NCBI RefSeq assembly: GCF_003383615.1
Contig: NZ_QNUL01000001.1
Span: 620,001 to 684,000 of the forward strand
DNA from: Dyadobacter luteus
GTDB taxonomy: Bacteria > Bacteroidota > Bacteroidia > Cytophagales > Spirosomataceae
Length of the DNA: 64,000 nucleotides
Direction: 5' to 3'
Under the pieces are notes generated by a model. That model had not been told where the DNA came from, ran no database searches, and saw nothing but the letters and a program-made list of their open reading frames with translations. The position numbers were made by a program, and so were the translations under genes. Positions 4,134 to 63,978 of this stretch are shown piece by piece. Each line of letters opens with the position of its first letter. Positions within the stretch are counted from its first letter, which is position 1.

Positions 4134-4283
4134 TGTACGATTGGCAATTCTTTCATTTACGGCACGAACGATTCGCAACCAGTTGAGAAAATTATGTAGC
4201 TTCATGCAGAAAAGATTGCATTGTATGAGCGGATGTTGAGAGAGAGGGATGAGATGATGGAGCGGTTGGTCAGAAATCAATAA
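4134..4283 (+). pseudogene. relic of an HTH (XRE-type) regulator C-terminus
   Basis: In one frame the sequence reads GTNDSQPVEKIM, stop (TAG 4197-4199), then LHAEKIALYERMLRERDE and MMERLVRNQ with a stop at 4281. The tail with an EKIALYERMLxERDEM heptad pattern is the usual coiled-coil end of Bacteroidota XRE-family repressors. The N-terminal HTH is missing and the internal TAG could be a single CAG change. It lies 27 bp before the possible start of the interrupted CHAT gene, so the two may once have been a regulator-effector pair. Confidence 0.5.
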
Positions 4284-4310
4284 ATTAAAATAAACATTTG
4301 AAGCTACGTT

Positions 4311-4364
4311 ATGGCTCTGCGAGACCTAATAGATGACCTAAATCACAAATTGACTTCCACATCG
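4311..4364 (+). pseudogene. possible 5' end of the CHAT gene cut by the IS
   Basis: An ATG at 4311 opens MALRDLIDDLNHKLTSTS, which runs directly into the left end of the insertion sequence. Directly on the other side of the element an open frame resumes with the CHAT-like protein. The assignment rests on position and frame only; no motif is recognisable in 18 residues. Confidence 0.35.
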
Positions 4365-4388
4365 TTGGGAATCGGGCGCATTTCAGAT

Positions 4389-5581
4389 CTACGCAGCGTG
4401 GCTTAATGCTTGTGTAACACAACTCCATCGATTACTTTCTCTGAGAACCCTCAAGTTTAGCATAGCCTGAGCTCCTTTGGGGGTCCACCGCTGTCCACTA
4501 CGCTTCATTCTTGTTTGTATGACGGTCCTATGCGCGGCTTCCATCGGGCCGTTCCCTATCATAAGTCCTTGACTGCGAAACGACTTATAATCCATTCTAT
4601 CAACGTTATTTTTATAGTATTCCAGAAGCTTTGTTCGTTGTTTCCTCACGTTTTTTGACAGCTTTCTAAGCTTCGCTATATTATCCAGAACATTCTGAGC
4701 AGAACCTTCCAGCAGCTCGCTTTTTTGAGCTTTAACCCATTTTTCGCGTCTGGCTATGTCCGTAAAATGTGAGTTTGCAAAGTCTGTTAAGTGTTCCACT
4801 GCATGATAGTAATCTAGAATGTGGGTTGCATTGGGAAATCTATTAGCCAGGTAGTTATGTATCCATTGTGCTCCATCTGTAATAAATACCAATCGGTCTT
4901 CACAATCTTTATAAGTGCCTAAGCTGGCTTCAAACTTGGGAATAAAATGGTTATAGGAACCTAAATGGCCGCTGTAAAAAGACTCGTCAAGTTTATAACG
5001 TATATTGCCTTGCTCTTTTGTGCCATTTTCTAATTTGCAATCCTCTCTGAAAATACGGCCGAGCTTGACCTCCTGCCAACCTTGATCCATTTGAATCATG
5101 CTCCCATCCATTGAAGCATATACCCTTTCAGTGCTGTTCAACTTCTGATGTTTGATCTCAGCCATTACATCTTCAGCAACTGCATTACCCAAGTAATCAG
5201 TTACTCTATATAACTGACTTTCAGATATATTAATACCCAATAAAGCATTTAATAATTCATTTGATTTTGAGTACACATCGCTCACCCCGGCGAGTGCCAT
5301 CAAATTTTGAAGATAGGGACTTATGAAAAAGCCGTTCGTTTTGGCCTTGTAACGATGTGTTTTGGACAGCTCTAATCTACCGAATCGGGTTTGACAGAAG
5401 TTTTTTTTCGCTTATCAGTAGACGTGCCCTTTTTTAAACTAGCCTGCATCACTTGCCCACCCAACTCCGTCCATGCTTTTATGAAACCTTCCTCGTAGGC
5501 ATAGAAGGTCTTTTCTGACTGTAAACCAGTTAATTTATCATAGTGAGCATCTACCAATGCATGTAATTCTTCGCGGGTCAT
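4389..5581 (-). CDS. ISKra4-family transposase, two frames joined by -1 frameshift
   Basis: A short first frame (5581-5372, 69 residues, MTREELHALVDAHYDKL...) ends at a TAG. The rest lies in the -1 frame and ends at 4389. The overlap contains a run of eight A residues (5408-5401 on the minus strand), read CGA AAA AAA ACT in the first frame; slipping back one base gives NFCQTRFGRLELSKTHRY and continues into MALAGVSDVYSKSNELL. The second part has the DDE-type core: VYASMDGSMI, RLVFITDGAQWIHNYL and THILDYYHAVEHL, then GNGPMEAAHRTV, typical of ISKra4 transposases. Programmed frameshifting is the likely mode, since both parts are otherwise intact. A simple inactivating indel would look the same. 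Confidence 0.85.
5401..5408 (-). other. A8 slippery site for -1 frameshift
   Basis: Eight consecutive A residues on the transposase coding strand give the heptamer A AAA AAA in the zero frame, the classical form for -1 slippage. It sits where the two transposase frames overlap. Confidence 0.6.
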
Positions 5582-5699
5582 ATCTGTAAAATTACTCGTT
5601 TTATTGAAAAGACCGCCTACTTGAGATCATACTTTAGGAGTTTCAAATATTTCAGCGTTAAGAAACTTTCGAAGCGAACTTTTGAAATGCGCCCGGTTA

Positions 5700-6505
5700 G
5701 GCAAATGTTTGCAGACGATTACAATCGAGAATCTGACATTTTAAAAACTGAATTTAATTTTATTCGAATAGGTTGCTTTGGAAGTGCTTCTCTCTACGTC
5801 ATTCTTGACATGAATGTCTCCGAATTTCCTCACAACCTATTCCTAGACTTGGACGGGAATTTTATTTATCATAAAAGACCCATCGCGAATATTATTTCGA
5901 CAGAGTGGTATTTAAGCAATTCTAGCAGAACAAAACTTACTCGAGATTTTACAAAATCAATTTGGATACCCACCGAGGGTGGAGATCTTGCAATTTCAAT
6001 ATTGTTTCAGAATTTAGAGGGAACGCTCACTACTGAGAGGTTTCATATCGAGCAAACTTTGGCTATTAAGTCGCCAATTTCGTCCGAGATGAACATTTTG
6101 GTAAGTCATGGAACAAATGAAATTGCTATTAATCAGGCAATATATCCAAACGAGAGTCCGAAACTGAATGTGTCACCCATTCTTGGTACAGGAAAAATTC
6201 TCATTCTCTTTGTTTGCCATTCGGGATCAATAAGATCAACTCCATTTGAAAATAGCGTATCTACATTGGTAAAGAAATTTCTTTCAGAAGGATATGTATC
6301 AATTATAGCACCATTTTGGTCTCTGCATATAGATATTCCGCCAATATGGTTACCCAAGTTATTAGAAGAACTTAATAAAGGCGAAAGCCTTGCTCATGCC
6401 GTGCATCAGGCAAACCTTGTGGTCTTCGATAGTTTTCCAACAATTGCCGCATGGGCTTGTCTACATTTATATGGAGATCCTCACATTACATTGGAAACTA
6501 ATTAA
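5700..6505 (+). pseudogene. CHAT-domain protease-like protein, 5' end disrupted by IS
   Basis: The open frame starts inside the right end of the insertion sequence (an ATG at 5621) but native coding probably begins near 5700. The C-terminal half shows the CHAT (caspase/HetF-associated) fold: the catalytic-histidine motif NILVSHGTNE (H codon at 6107), the catalytic-cysteine motif ILFVCHSGS (C codon at 6215), then SIIAPFWSL, LLEELNKGESLAHAVHQAN and the family-ending AAWACLHLYGDPHI. The H/C dyad is intact. CHAT proteins are caspase-like proteases used in several bacterial immune and cell-death systems. The region is AT-richer than the mannan genes around it. Whether a truncated protein is still made is unknown. 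Confidence 0.75.
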
Positions 6506-6591
6506 GACTCAAAATTCACAGATATAAGAACACTATTTCGAAAGACATTCGTGTTCAGATCGGCTAGATTCAAGAGCGTATTCAGATGCTG

Positions 6592-6705
6592 TTACTCCGA
6601 TAGATTGGTCGCATCATCTGGGTAGTTGCCGGCCATTATGCATTCCGCAATACCTTCTTTCAACTTGTTTTCATTGTAGTAAAAAGTGCCGCGGATTGAT
6701 GTTCC
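6592..6705 (-). pseudogene. relic of a MobB/relaxase-type mobilization protein
   Basis: One frame reads IRGTFYYNENKLKEGIAE then CIMAGNYPDDATNLSE and stop. The pattern YNENKxKEGxAECIxAxNYPxD is the N-terminal signature of Bacteroidota relaxase/mobilization nucleases. The rest of the gene, about 350 residues, is absent. It joins directly to the RadC relic. Confidence 0.6.
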
Positions 6706-6799
6706 AGCCATTGGAAACTTCAAGAATACCTAGCACGCGGCTGGCATTGTTCAATAAAAGCATCTTGAACTCTTCAATAAATTCGAGTGCCATGGGGCT
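6700..6799 (-). pseudogene. relic of a RadC-like JAB-domain protein
   Basis: The frame from 6799 reads SPMALEFIEEFKMLLLNN and ASRVLGILEVSNG, matching the RadC segment xxFxEEFKVLLLNRANRVLGIxxVSxGG. It is preceded by a stop and truncated on both sides. RadC-like genes are common cargo of Bacteroidota mobile elements. Confidence 0.6.
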
Positions 6800-6807
6800 T
6801 CACCCTG

Positions 6808-7458
6808 TCAGAGCTTACCCTGAACGATCTGAACATTCCTGACGATTGCTTCTTCTACTTTTTCCGGATGATGGGAACAGATATACAATCCTACAAAGAG
6901 TTGGGTAGGTAGGTCAGGCATGCGATGCGAACCGACGGTCTGTAAGGCTTCCCCTTTTTTTGCTACGCGCATGGTATACGCATTGCCCTTGCGCTCAACC
7001 TGGATTGTCTGAATATTTTTTTGGGAACTAAAAATTTCGTCTTCCGGATCACGCATTGCCATGCCCTTTTTTACTCGCCACTGCAATACGGTCAGGCCAT
7101 CGCCATGCGCTACGGCACTGATGTGCGCGGCATCCTCGGTCAGTGATTCACGAACCATCCAGCCTACTTTTCGATGCGGATCTGTACCGGCTCCTTCAAA
7201 CTCAAAATCGGCAGTTACAGTGAAATCACCACTTATTTTTTTGAACAGAAACTGAAATTCATCCCGTGCAAACCAGATGTTGTATCCCGAACCAAGGAGC
7301 CTGTATTCCCTGGTCGACGCGTTGTAAATCGATGAGCCGGCCAGTTTAGGCTTGCCAATATCCTGGCTATGCTGGAAAACACCAATTGGTTTGTCGGCGG
7401 TGAAGCTGATAGAAATCCCAATGGCTGCGATAAAGAGAAATAAATTTGCTGTACGCAT
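6808..7458 (-). CDS. secreted DUF1349 concanavalin-like protein
   Basis: This 216-residue protein has an N-terminal signal peptide (residues 1-20, LFLFIAAIGISISFT) and one DUF1349/'regulation of enolase 1-like' beta-sandwich domain. Visible motifs are YNIWFARDEFQFLFKKISGDFTV, KVGWMVRESL and LFVGLYICSHHPE, which match laminin-G/concanavalin-type folds often linked to glycan-active proteins. No catalytic residues can be named; a carbohydrate-binding accessory role is inferred. It is the last gene on the minus strand after the large GH26, SusC and SusD genes, with an inverted repeat at 7504-7546 in between that may lower its expression. The mobile-DNA scar begins right after its stop. Confidence 0.75.
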   Translation of the reverse strand: MRTANLFLFIAAIGISISFTADKPIGVFQHSQDIGKPKLAGSSIYNASTREYRLLGSGYNIWFARDEFQFLFKKISGDFTVTADFEFEGAGTDPHRKVGWMVRESLTEDAAHISAVAHGDGLTVLQWRVKKGMAMRDPEDEIFSSQKNIQTIQVERKGNAYTMRVAKKGEALQTVGSHRMPDLPTQLFVGLYICSHHPEKVEEAIVRNVQIVQGKL

Positions 7459-60290: not shown

Positions 60291-63200
60291 ATGAGTCTGA
60301 AAACTTTATATCGGTTTTTTCTTTTAACAATAGTTGCTGCCTGGTTTTCTTTCATGTGCCTGAAGCACTATCTTGAAAAAGTACTTGATCTGAATGCGGA
60401 CAACAATTCCATTTTGAGCCTTTATGAAAGCTATGAAATGCTCATGGATTTCATTCCGATCTTTGTAGTTCTGATGGGAATTATCCCGCAATTAAAACCT
60501 GTTAAAAAATGGTTGGGTCAATTTTCTTTATGGAAAGATTGGAATCCTGAAATTGCAGAAGAATCAGCTATTCTGGACGCTAAACGAAACTTGATACATG
60601 TATTAAAGGGCATCTATGCGGGTTACCTTGATGAATATGCTAAATCCTGCAAAGGGCTTTCAGGCCTGGATTTGGTTACCTTAAAATTTCTTCACCATCC
60701 CGATGTGTCAAGCATACAGATAAATTCTCAGATTGCAACTGAGGAAAAAACAAACGGTCAGAACTACATTAATGGTAAGACTGGCAATTCTGTCGATCAG
60801 ATTATTCTGAATGATCCGACCATTGATGTGTTTTTTGCTGTCATTTTAGGTGATGCCGGTTGTGGGAAAAGCTACAGTTTTGTAAAAAGGCTACATGAAT
60901 CTCTTCTTAAAATACCTGCAAGTCCCTCAGCTGAATTTATTAAGGGGGTTAAAATACCTATACTTTTTGACGCAGGAGACTATCGAATACAAGCGAATGT
61001 CGAATCCAATGCTTTGGAAATCTGGCTATCAGACAGTCTGAAAAAACACTACAAAATAGCAAGTAAGCAGGTCAGGAACTGGCTTATCGAAGGTGGGCAC
61101 CTGGCAATATGTCTGGATGGGCTGGATGAAATCCCTCAACTGGATAGAATCGAATTTATGAAGGCTATAAAAGCTTACAGTGAAAAAAATAAAACAGTCA
61201 TCATTTCGAGCCGTAAAGAAGAATTTGTCAGGCTCCAATCGGACCTTCCTGTTTCGCCTCAAATTTATGAGGTAGAATCACTTGACAGACATGACATTGA
61301 CAATATTATTGGTAAGATTTACATTGATAATCCTGAACATCAGACGGCAATTCGAAGTGTATTGGATTCAAAATCCGAACTATACAATTATTTAAAAGTC
61401 CCTCTGATCCTGAACCTGTTTGTAAAAACGTTTGCCACACTTAACGAAAATGATATTTCTAGAATAAAACAGCTTCCTGTAGAAGGTTGTTTGCTACTCT
61501 TGTGGGAAAAATATGATCCATTGATTTTTGCAGAGCGGCTTACTGAAAAGCAGCAAATACCTGGTACAGTCGTCAAAGAAAAAAGCCTTCATATCTCATC
61601 AGATCAGCAAAAACTCGCACGAACATACGCGGCATGGTTGTCCAGGCAAATAGACAACAAGACATTCTACATTGAAGATATTCAGCCCCGGTGGTTACTT
61701 CCTCATGACCCTCAAACCGCAAAAAGTAACAGTCAAGTATGGGCTTACTATTATACCTCCCGGGTACTCAGTGCAGTGCTACTTGCCATTGCAGTGGGCT
61801 TTTTAATCGCTAGCCCGCTCGACTTCCTGGGAAATGGTGTGCTTGCCGGGGTGCTGGTTTCATTTCTTACCTTAAAGACACTCCAAATAAAGATATCCCC
61901 CTGGGTTACTATTGTCCTTTTTGTCTCATGTGCAGCCTTGTTATGCGGACTTTACCAGGGACTGACAGTTCCCAGACAACATGCAGATATGTACGGGCTC
62001 TTCTCTGTTACAGAATCATTCTCAGGAATTGTATTCGGACTGATCGCCGGACTAACGTTTGGATTCAGAAAAATCAAACAAACAGCGGAACTGGACATTC
62101 AACCAGTAGAGCAACGCAAGTTCAGTTGGGGGCAGGCCGTCCGACACGGCTTGGCAGGCGGAGCTGCGGTGGGTTTTCTGATAGGTACTATCGGTGTGAT
62201 CATTCAACTTCAACACGACAACAGGAATACATTTACTTTATGGCTCAGACCGTTTCTGCAAAAAATGAGTCAAATGTTCACCCAGCATGTAATGCCTTTC
62301 AAGTATAGTGAAACTTTGATGGTTTTCATTCTGGGCTATGGTGTTGCATTTATCGTTGCATTCATGATTATCGGAGTGATACGAGGCCGTCAGGATGTTA
62401 CAACGATCGAAAAAGACTCCCGCACCGGTCTTAATTCAGGCATGCTCAAATCGCTGGAAAATGCACTGATATATGGAGTTCTTACTTTCGCAACGATTGG
62501 TATACTCTATTCGCTCTGTCTGTATACGGTGAGTGGGCTTGCTGAGTCTGTAACCAGAGCGCTCAGATTCAGTCTCGGCCTTGCCATTATCGCATCGCTC
62601 TGGTTTGGGGGGTTTGAGCTTATTCATCACTGGACACTACGGTTTTACCTGTATTTATCAGGAAGAGTGCCTCTAAGATATGCTTCCTGGGTGCAGACCA
62701 TGCACAAAATAGATTTTGTGCGCCAGACCGGTGCCCGGATTAAGATCCATCATCTCTCCTTGAAAGAATATCTGCTTGCCCTACCACTCGCACCAACCCC
62801 AAATGCAAATAATGAAGCGATGATCCATAGTTTTCGGCCGCACTATCGCCGTAATGTGCTTTATAGCAGATGGCTGGGACTTTCTATGTTATTCATCATG
62901 CCATTTATTGATAGGTTTGGGTGCAATAAGTTCTGGAATCAGGAAAACGAAATTGTCTATCGCCATAATGATGAACACATTCAAAAAATAGCTGCAAATG
63001 TCTTCAAAGCAAAAAAAGACTGTTCGGTTTCATTCATTGTTGACGGCTCGGTAAAACTTGGCACTTTCGTCGGCAGCATTGCACCCTCGGGAACATCTGC
63101 AGGATTTCTTGGTTTTCCAATGGATACAGTTTACAACCTCTTCGGCAATTTTCGGCATGGGGCATTACTTTTGAAGAGAAGTGTAAATCCAAATAAATGG

Positions 63201-63371
63201 GAATATCTGATCGCTCCAAAATTCGAAATCCTAGGTATGGGACCGGGCAAGGCCATGCTCCAGTTAAAAAAAGGCGAATCATTTGAATTTTGTATCAATG
63301 ATAATGAATGGCAAAATAACTCCGGCCATTTTCTGATTCAAATGGAATCTAAGCTCAAAGAGCTGAAATAG
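60291..63371 (+). CDS. polytopic membrane NACHT NTPase with C-terminal LecA-like domain
   Basis: 1026 residues. Two N-terminal membrane helices (about 7-25 and 50-66) precede a NACHT domain (about 180-420): Walker A GDAGCGKS (187-194), Walker B LAICLDGLDE (271-280), sensor-like VIISSRKEEF and NIIGKIY. About seven to eight hydrophobic helices follow (495-780), then a cytosolic-type segment ARIKIHHLSLKEYLLALPL, matching the winged end of membrane NACHT proteins (compare YxFIHRxLLEYFA). The tail (about 895-1026) ends GKAMLQLKKGESFEFCINDNEWQNNSGHFLIQM, the calcium-site pattern INDNxxxxNSGxF of PA-IL/LecA-type beta-sandwiches. NACHT proteins are STAND signalling NTPases, several being antiphage sensors. 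The role here is inference. Confidence 0.85.
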   Translation: MSLKTLYRFFLLTIVAAWFSFMCLKHYLEKVLDLNADNNSILSLYESYEMLMDFIPIFVVLMGIIPQLKPVKKWLGQFSLWKDWNPEIAEESAILDAKRNLIHVLKGIYAGYLDEYAKSCKGLSGLDLVTLKFLHHPDVSSIQINSQIATEEKTNGQNYINGKTGNSVDQIILNDPTIDVFFAVILGDAGCGKSYSFVKRLHESLLKIPASPSAEFIKGVKIPILFDAGDYRIQANVESNALEIWLSDSLKKHYKIASKQVRNWLIEGGHLAICLDGLDEIPQLDRIEFMKAIKAYSEKNKTVIISSRKEEFVRLQSDLPVSPQIYEVESLDRHDIDNIIGKIYIDNPEHQTAIRSVLDSKSELYNYLKVPLILNLFVKTFATLNENDISRIKQLPVEGCLLLLWEKYDPLIFAERLTEKQQIPGTVVKEKSLHISSDQQKLARTYAAWLSRQIDNKTFYIEDIQPRWLLPHDPQTAKSNSQVWAYYYTSRVLSAVLLAIAVGFLIASPLDFLGNGVLAGVLVSFLTLKTLQIKISPWVTIVLFVSCAALLCGLYQGLTVPRQHADMYGLFSVTESFSGIVFGLIAGLTFGFRKIKQTAELDIQPVEQRKFSWGQAVRHGLAGGAAVGFLIGTIGVIIQLQHDNRNTFTLWLRPFLQKMSQMFTQHVMPFKYSETLMVFILGYGVAFIVAFMIIGVIRGRQDVTTIEKDSRTGLNSGMLKSLENALIYGVLTFATIGILYSLCLYTVSGLAESVTRALRFSLGLAIIASLWFGGFELIHHWTLRFYLYLSGRVPLRYASWVQTMHKIDFVRQTGARIKIHHLSLKEYLLALPLAPTPNANNEAMIHSFRPHYRRNVLYSRWLGLSMLFIMPFIDRFGCNKFWNQENEIVYRHNDEHIQKIAANVFKAKKDCSVSFIVDGSVKLGTFVGSIAPSGTSAGFLGFPMDTVYNLFGNFRHGALLLKRSVNPNKWEYLIAPKFEILGMGPGKAMLQLKKGESFEFCINDNEWQNNSGHFLIQMESKLKELK

Positions 63372-63483
63372 CGATATCACCAAATCAACTAAATATAAAC
63401 ATGGCACCGGTCGATTCTGCAATTTGACAACAAAGGATTAATTTGCAGTTTACTATGATACGATGCTGAATAAAAAAACAATC

Positions 63484-63978
63484 ATGAAATCAATTGCGCT
63501 ACTCGCACTGATCGTTACCACTATTTTTTTGACAGAAACAGATGATACAACCGATAAACGCACATGGCATCAACAACTGCCACCCTGCCCATGTACCAAT
63601 CCGGATTTTAACAAAATAATACTTAATGATGGATGGGCAAAAGACAAAGGAGACCTGGACACATATCATCATGGAGCAACAGAATGTTTCCGCTCCTACC
63701 CATACACAAAAACCTCGGCAGGAAAATCAGGCCAGCAGTGCTGTTATGACAGTAATGGAAAGCTAATCAGCTCCGGTTCTGGTGCCGGTACACCGGATAA
63801 AGCGAGTACTTGCTCCGGAGAGGATAAAAGCGGAACTATGAAAATTCGTTTTTTTGCTCTGTTACCCCATTACTTTAGGGATGTTAAGCCCTGGAAACAA
63901 GCAGGAGAAGCATCCGAAGCATGGAAGATTTATAACAAAGAATGGGTCCCAAGCCAACCCGACTGCAGCGTGAAATAG
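63484..63978 (+). CDS. secreted cysteine-rich AMOP-like protein
   Basis: Start at ATG 63484 (MKSIALLALIVTTIFLTETD), giving a short signal peptide; an ATG at 63463 would add MLNKKTI. The mature protein of about 145 residues has eight cysteines: PPCPCTNPDF, TECFRSYPY, GQQCCYDSNGKLI, STCSGED and PDCSVK. The QCCYDxxGxLI motif with nearby GAGTPD and the CxC start is the pattern of the AMOP domain, known in eukaryotic adhesion proteins and sporadically in bacteria. It lies 112 bp after the NACHT gene on the same strand, so the two may form an operon. Function unknown; an extracellular partner or adhesin is inferred. Confidence 0.7.
   Translation: MKSIALLALIVTTIFLTETDDTTDKRTWHQQLPPCPCTNPDFNKIILNDGWAKDKGDLDTYHHGATECFRSYPYTKTSAGKSGQQCCYDSNGKLISSGSGAGTPDKASTCSGEDKSGTMKIRFFALLPHYFRDVKPWKQAGEASEAWKIYNKEWVPSQPDCSVK

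Follow-up and report, generated by a model that had tools for sequence, protein, structure and literature searches.

What brings together, at the 3′ end of a 64,000-nucleotide stretch of the Dyadobacter luteus genome, a gene for a membrane protein built around a NACHT-like NTPase, a switch of the class that immune receptors employ, and a gene for a small, predicted exported protein with an AMOP domain? The stretch, called the window throughout, spans positions 620,001–684,000 of the forward strand of contig NZ_QNUL01000001.1 (assembly GCF_003383615.1). Both genes lie on its plus strand, where the original prediction had put them, as open reading frames (ORFs) of 1026 residues at 60291–63371 and 171 residues at 63463–63978. 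Our analysis, in which domains, pairing and fusions are read from sequence, suggests that the pair may consist of a STAND receptor in the inner membrane and a secreted protein that serves it as co-receptor or ligand, a reading to which we give somewhat less than an even chance. The cell may use such a pair to sense events outside the inner membrane.

A rare gene pair conserved in Bacteroidota

The gene for the NACHT–transmembrane–tail protein adjoins an AMOP gene at three loci (L-numbers denote loci): the window, L014 (a Bacteroidetes metagenome-assembled genome, MAG) and L015 (a Chitinophagales MAG). The original prediction had looked to Bacteroidota for conservation of the pair, and these two loci carry the same NACHT–transmembrane–tail gene beside AMOP. 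The NACHT gene comes first in the window, where the AMOP gene starts 91 bases after it, whereas AMOP comes first in L014 and L015, with the genes nearly touching or overlapping. The relatives of the membrane protein (953 aa in L014, 969 aa in L015) align along the entire window protein, with identities of 27.8% (904 residues aligned) and 29.1% (928 residues aligned), respectively, and such identities of 28–29% imply that the pairing is not recent synteny. The corresponding AMOP proteins are 49.1% (L014) and 54.9% (L015) identical to that of the window.

The distribution of the two proteins was followed in 222 genomes of the family and in an even sample of 395 genomes of the phylum, the own genome (G000) being counted in both, as well as in a peptide-pattern scan that took a single genome from each of 84,980 species. 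With two AMOP peptides as query, the scan returned 50 stretches, 18 of which encode a relative (L012–L029, with L012 from Bacteroidia and L013 from Saprospiraceae). No relative emerged when the same kind of scan was queried with the window NACHT protein, probably because a single divergent sequence gives over-specific peptides, the AMOP patterns having succeeded. The window NACHT protein was matched in 7/222 family genomes, and its profile A2 in 15/395 phylum genomes with at most two candidates scored per genome; all matches listed for either query, the own excepted, are NACHT, membrane-block or tail pieces. Judged by these loci, the NACHT–transmembrane–tail gene and the AMOP gene form a conserved and rare pair.

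When 21 AMOP loci (the window, L055, L012–L029 and L050) were searched with the tail profile, the tail was present at four, always in the gene adjacent to AMOP; a local AMOP profile recovers AMOP at 20 of these loci, L020 being the exception. At the fourth of these loci, in genome G203 (L003/L055), there is no adjacent NACHT gene, and the AMOP gene follows one whose product bears a signal sequence, has carboxypeptidase-regulatory-like domains (by weak Pfam matches below the cut-off) and ends in the tail. A GTPase link of this cluster was set aside as weak (DO-GTPase1, E 0.029, below the cut-off).

Four family genomes hold the two domains in one chain (L085, L087, L088 and L089, the proteins of the last two being 98% identical), with a signal-like N-terminus, the tail and a C-terminal AMOP-like domain bearing the motifs '(C/F)QC.Y', 'G(T/S)FD(F/Y)G' and 'H..LD..PH'. 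Aligned with the AMOP alignment by hhalign, this C-terminal domain scored 40.6 (E 3.7e-6, probability 87%), against a maximum of 21.1 among 200 column-shuffled versions and 12.9 for the LecA tails that served as control. The fusions thus provide gene-fusion evidence that tail and AMOP domain probably work together. L096 was considered as a further fusion and dropped, as the tail is present with no A6 match.

The AMOP protein

The 171-residue protein matches AMOP (PF03782, E 2.1e-13) over positions 63553–63903, its 51.1 bits lying well above the 25-bit cut-off, and a search of solved structures with a profile built from six bacterial relatives found Isthmin-1 (9c6t, E 7.3e-14). C42, C44, C93, C94, C117 and C168 are invariant in all six aligned relatives. 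From its sequence the gene clearly encodes an AMOP protein, as the original prediction had recognised, and the N-terminus, hydrophobic and signal-peptide-like by eye, suggests export.

Other AMOP genes occur in different company. In L017, L022, L023, L025 and L028 the domain forms the C-terminus of long proteins judged RHS-like by eye, from Planctomycetota, Verrucomicrobia, Lentisphaerota and an unclassified bacterium; Pfam recognised AMOP only in the long protein of L017. In RHS carriers the C-terminus is usually where a variable payload sits. In L012 the AMOP gene is convergent with a gene for a TPR-CHAT lipoprotein-like product (L012:7899-11498; CHAT E 1.6e-52) and lies downstream of what look by eye like genes for an ECF sigma factor and for a transmembrane TPR protein. 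The Gloeothece conjugative plasmid pP742402 (L050:1-9200), the only one of 72,556 plasmid records with AMOP, encodes an AMOP-like protein (tblastn E 3e-8; Pfam 17.5 bits, below the cut-off); genes for a CHAT-nSTAND1 protein and for an M48 metallopeptidase lie nearby.

A divergent NACHT-like NTPase with predicted membrane helices

The NACHT domain of the larger protein covers residues 184–342 (60840–61316), with a Walker A motif GDAGCGKS at residues 187–194 (60849–60872) and a Walker B motif LAICLDGLDE at residues 271–280 (61101–61130). The key residues of Walker A and of the NACHT-type Walker B are invariant in all three proteins (window, L014 and L015). Two relatives found with the NACHT profile, L051 and L052, exceed the 26.7-bit PF05729 cut-off (40.6 and 30.0 bits). 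By its motifs and relatives, the window protein is a divergent, NACHT-like NTPase; the NACHT/STAND call of the original prediction holds at the motifs, whereas the Pfam score of the window protein itself falls short. A phmmer search of the full protein against the PDB returned nothing useful.

Some relatives without a tail match both the NACHT domain and the end of the eight-helix membrane block in profile searches. Among these tail-less proteins, L051, L052 and L054 extend only a little way past a stretch that closes with 'HRM..EHFA', the counterpart of the stretch that precedes the last helix of the window protein. As they stop before that helix, helix and tail together look like an added outward module. 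Seven plasmid records, all cyanobacterial, match the NACHT protein; all end at query residue 827 or earlier, and none reaches the tail. L051 also holds, at 4270-7263, a Ser/Thr kinase fused N-terminally to the multi-transmembrane NACHT protein.

A tail related to PA-IL/LecA

The tail (residues 895–1021, 62973–63353), predicted to be extracytoplasmic, belongs to a family recognised by the profiles A4, built from nine tails, and A7. A4 matched 30/222 family genomes as against 2/395 genomes of the phylum sample. The link to PA-IL runs through one member, L103 (genome G185), which matches the tail profile at E 4.2e-18 and 4.1e-23 and passes the 22.5-bit cut-off of PA-IL (PF07828) with 25.8 bits in the genome search and 23.9 bits (E 4.4e-5) as a protein, the PA-IL match coinciding with that of the tail profile. 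By way of L103, sequence comparison supports the view that the tail family and PA-IL are homologous.

In 20 genomes picked for having tails and 14 control genomes, searched with PA-IL up to E 1, matches occurred in 7/20 tail-bearing genomes, those besides L103 lying off the listed tail sites, and in 3/14 controls below the cut-off. Single tails matched PA-IL weakly in 2 of 28 cases (best E 0.015). A profile of 28 tails searched against the PDB aligned with PllA, a LecA homologue (5odu; E 0.097, best domain E 1.7), collinearly over most of its length, with a similar ND...(D/N)(N/D).G loop that is shorter in the tails than in PllA. The UPF0345/Ppnp cupin 2oyz had better E-values (0.014, and 0.036 with the 28-tail profile) and was set aside, as it covers ~40 residues; PllA was kept for its collinearity and the L103 link. 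Across the 28 tails G25, G30, G40, W76 and N109 are conserved in 28/28, P38, Y54 and H62 in 27/28 and D110 in 26/28; the ND motif, with N in all 28 and D in 26, is what would bear on any Ca2+-dependent galactose binding. The LecA-like tail of the original prediction is therefore LecA-like on account of its relatives, not of the window sequence alone or of a structure. No CLec or FGS domain was matched by Pfam in the window protein, L014, L015 or the 28 tails, and phmmer of the G203 tail against the PDB gave nothing useful.

The tail is also fused to a matrixin-like M10 domain in L008 and L060 and to a caspase-like C14 domain in L079, other tails sitting behind transmembrane or unclassified parts. 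The L079 protein (L091:7410-8675, genome G058) joins a signal-like N-terminus, the C14 domain and the PA-IL-like tail, and genes nearby look by eye like those for a sigma factor, a TPR protein and further caspase-like proteins.

Predicted topology

A hydropathy scan gives 11 membrane helices, close to the 'about ten' of the original prediction: two before the NACHT domain (residues 6–24 and 50–68, 60306–60494; two also in L014 and L015), a block of eight after it (residues 492–778, 61764–62624, with charge bias) and one before the tail (residues 855–873, 62853–62909), moderate in the window and stronger in L014 and L015. The list was edited by hand: peaks at Walker A in the window, in the tail of all three proteins and at two further sites in L014 were dropped, and helices at 447–465 and 467–485, one each in L014 and L015, were added by homology.

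With two, eight and one helices in this order, NACHT domain and tail are computed to lie on opposite sides of the membrane. Lysine and arginine near the membrane number 24/131 on the NACHT side vs 14/124 on the tail side in the window protein, 30/145 vs 10/86 in L014 and 34/133 vs 11/100 in L015, and this charge bias places the tail, by computation, on the side to which the AMOP protein is predicted to be exported. The tail family at large points the same way: a signal- or transmembrane-like N-terminus was present in 31 of 33 tail proteins (rough hydropathy rule; duplicate loci and the window excluded), the two exceptions being L070, a short ORF, and L084, an ORF that is RHS-like by eye. Tails are thus predicted from these N-termini to be mostly exported domains.

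Genomic surroundings

Directly upstream of the pair lies a stretch of ~1.3 kb without any ORF above 60 aa, in keeping with the non-coding stretch of the original prediction. The same prediction had set the pair away from metabolic genes, but a polysaccharide-type cluster (CpsB/CapC, polysaccharide export, a Wzz-type kinase, a UDP-sugar dehydrogenase and a nucleotidyl transferase) starts ~4.75 kb downstream of AMOP, outside the window. In this downstream region (L059:6228-18277) a 7TMR-DISM protein with a weak helix-turn-helix match precedes the cluster.

A glycerophosphodiester phosphodiesterase (GDPD) gene stands directly after the NACHT gene in L014 (L014:11272-12012) and L015 (L015:11418-12182); the two are 52.3% identical, and Pfam recognises GDPD in that of L015. 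Proteins that look alike by eye are encoded near tail or AMOP genes at L055:7117-10443, L014:3678-6214, L092:10443-12791 and L096:8300-9928, those of L055 and L014 combining a membrane helix with carboxypeptidase-regulatory-like or Ig-like repeats. The neighbours seen in common are only the GDPD gene (L014, L015) and the similar-looking repeat protein (L014, L055). In genome G133 the start of an SrfC-type Virul_Fac gene (L102:12716-13000; PF10139, E 2.8e-10) lies ~5.7 kb from a tail and AMOP-like fusion gene.

Relation to known systems

The original prediction held that the combination matches no known system, which is too strong in view of published lectin-fold STAND sensors. Passages of one study propose that CLec lectin-fold domains at the C-terminus of STAND proteins, some predicted to be periplasmic, act as sensors, and also describe CLec variation by diversity-generating retroelements (PMC10907252); lectin-fold FGS and NPCBM sensors on STAND proteins appear in parts of another (PMC8195603), whose main text returned no mention of PA-IL or LecA in a term search. 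These proteins likewise join a NACHT or other STAND switch to a C-terminal lectin-fold domain as proposed sensor, but theirs is a C-type-lectin fold, whereas here a PA-IL-like tail goes with an AMOP protein. Portions of a 2020 survey of conflict systems describe membrane-proximal systems with extracellular domains, and a term search of it found no mention of AMOP or PA-IL (PMC7159879). In the open-licence literature we found no report of an AMOP/NACHT pairing, and none evidently on a bacterial AMOP protein; the match for AMOP together with NACHT was a paper on cnidarians. Lectin-fold sensors on STAND proteins are thus already proposed; what is new here is another lectin fold and an AMOP partner.

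The bNACHT class, as excerpts of PMC12169576 present it, includes phage-defence proteins whose C-terminal part is expected to sense; of the two clades described there, one has a nuclease effector at its N-terminus and the other a short domain at its C-terminus. The window protein shares the NACHT module and a C-terminal part that would sense; it differs in having no recognised effector domain and no PADLOC match and in having 11 predicted helices and a predicted outward tail. The tail-less multi-transmembrane NACHT proteins (L051, L052, L054 and the cyanobacterial plasmid matches) share the NACHT domain followed by a related membrane block, without the last helix and tail and, in L051, with the N-terminal kinase. 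Members of the PA-IL/LecA family (PF07828; PllA 5odu) are soluble lectins, to which the tail is tied by L103 and the similar loop of PllA, whereas it is part of a membrane protein and has no Pfam match. Isthmin-1, MUC4 and SUSD2 share with the small protein a cysteine-rich AMOP domain and a signal-like N-terminus; that of the window is bacterial, stand-alone and beside a NACHT receptor-like gene.

Discussion

The domain calls of the original prediction stand, and a surveillance role for the pair, which it had suggested, is plausible. Neither of the outcomes that it had named as refuting was observed, since the pair recurs outside this genome and profiles tie the tail family to PA-IL. For defence in particular, PADLOC matched neither of the two proteins, and an antiphage NACHT model of NCBIfam (EruA) matched far below threshold (E 0.058, 11.5 bits against a cut-off of 1000). 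Viral contigs searched with AMOP and A2, and phage records searched with AMOP, yielded no relative. With no effector domain recognised, no match to a catalogued defence model and no relatives in the viral contigs and phage records searched, defence would stand alongside contact sensing and envelope monitoring as a possible role.

Several results weigh against a receptor with an exported partner. AMOP is very rare, present in 2/222 family genomes (G000 and G203) and 1/395 phylum genomes (the own), and 17 of the 21 AMOP loci have no tail, including L012, L013 and all 15 not labelled Bacteroidota (L016–L029 and L050); several of the tail-less loci outside Bacteroidota have AMOP on the RHS-like proteins, and several of these loci are only short contigs. 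Pfam found no AMOP in the three fusion proteins scanned. The window protein reaches only 17.8 bits against NACHT (PF05729, E 0.003), below the cut-off, and those of L014 and L015 have no Pfam match at E 0.1; no effector domain was found. Pfam on the window tail alone gave no match, so the PA-IL cut-off was not reached, and it was passed at a tail in only one of the 20 tail-bearing genomes. Structure prediction from three rows (window, L014, L015) had a predicted local distance difference test (pLDDT) of 40.5 for the tail and 36.2 for the full protein, too poor for a fold search, so that neither the tail fold nor a complex has structural backing. Beside the pair no defence gene was recognised, no systematic search having been made.

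Of the alternatives, contact sensing fares best, as a possible though unlikely role: in place of phage defence, AMOP would be a cell-surface recognition module for self/non-self or developmental contact, and the NACHT protein would read neighbours or competitors. The AMOP domains at the ends of long RHS-like proteins and the lack of relatives in the phage records (AMOP) and viral contigs (AMOP, NACHT) searched fit this idea, as do eukaryotic AMOP proteins, described in parts of PMC9818725 as extracellular adhesion proteins. The RHS-like carriers, however, are only distant relatives, and a single AMOP match was found in each of G000 and G203, which implies no second, RHS-borne AMOP there at that threshold (the L014 and L015 genomes lay outside this search); the phage-defence members of the NACHT class also argue the other way.

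We consider it improbable that tail and AMOP instead monitor or bind a surface polysaccharide while the NACHT protein regulates export or stress. Such envelope or exopolysaccharide housekeeping would suit the cluster downstream of the window pair, the GDPD gene after NACHT in L014 and L015 and the sugar binding that the PA-IL link suggests, but the shared neighbours are limited to the GDPD gene and the repeat protein, and no polysaccharide cluster was recognised by eye beside the pair in L014, L015 or G203. That the tail is cytoplasmic or unlinked to AMOP, the genes being neighbours by chance, is very improbable: it could draw on a computed topology and poor fold models, and it is countered by three divergent pairs, a fourth pair of tail and AMOP, four tail–AMOP-like fusions and the charge bias in all three NACHT proteins.

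For the pair as a membrane receptor with an exported partner, we infer the binding, trigger and output as follows. The NACHT switch would be cytoplasmic, on a chain with 11 predicted membrane crossings and, at its end, a PA-IL-like beta domain in the periplasm. The small AMOP protein would be exported to the side of the tail and dock on it, alone or together with a third molecule, which might be a glycan, a protein from a phage or a competitor, or a piece of the envelope that has become exposed. The gain or loss of this docking would change the state of the NACHT domain and so report an envelope event to the cytoplasm, and oligomerisation of NACHT might then act through the membrane helices, by a change in permeability, or through partners.

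A bolder version, which we hold to be doubtful, makes the pair a transmembrane counterpart of immune receptors, in which a lectin-fold ectodomain would have AMOP as its ligand or co-receptor and an NLR-type NACHT ATPase inside would be switched by binding outside the inner membrane. The PA-IL-like domain and AMOP might then form a general extracytoplasmic recognition cassette plugged into different machineries. NACHT–transmembrane proteins and carboxypeptidase-regulatory-like proteins would carry the cassette, and caspase-like and matrixin-like proteins the tail alone. To our knowledge, those NLR-like proteins of bacteria that have been characterised do their sensing in the cytoplasm. If the proposal is true, a NACHT switch coupled to a lectin-fold domain in the periplasm and to a secreted partner with AMOP would make a two-compartment receptor, and AMOP, known from animal adhesion-related proteins, would gain a bacterial context and a candidate binding partner.

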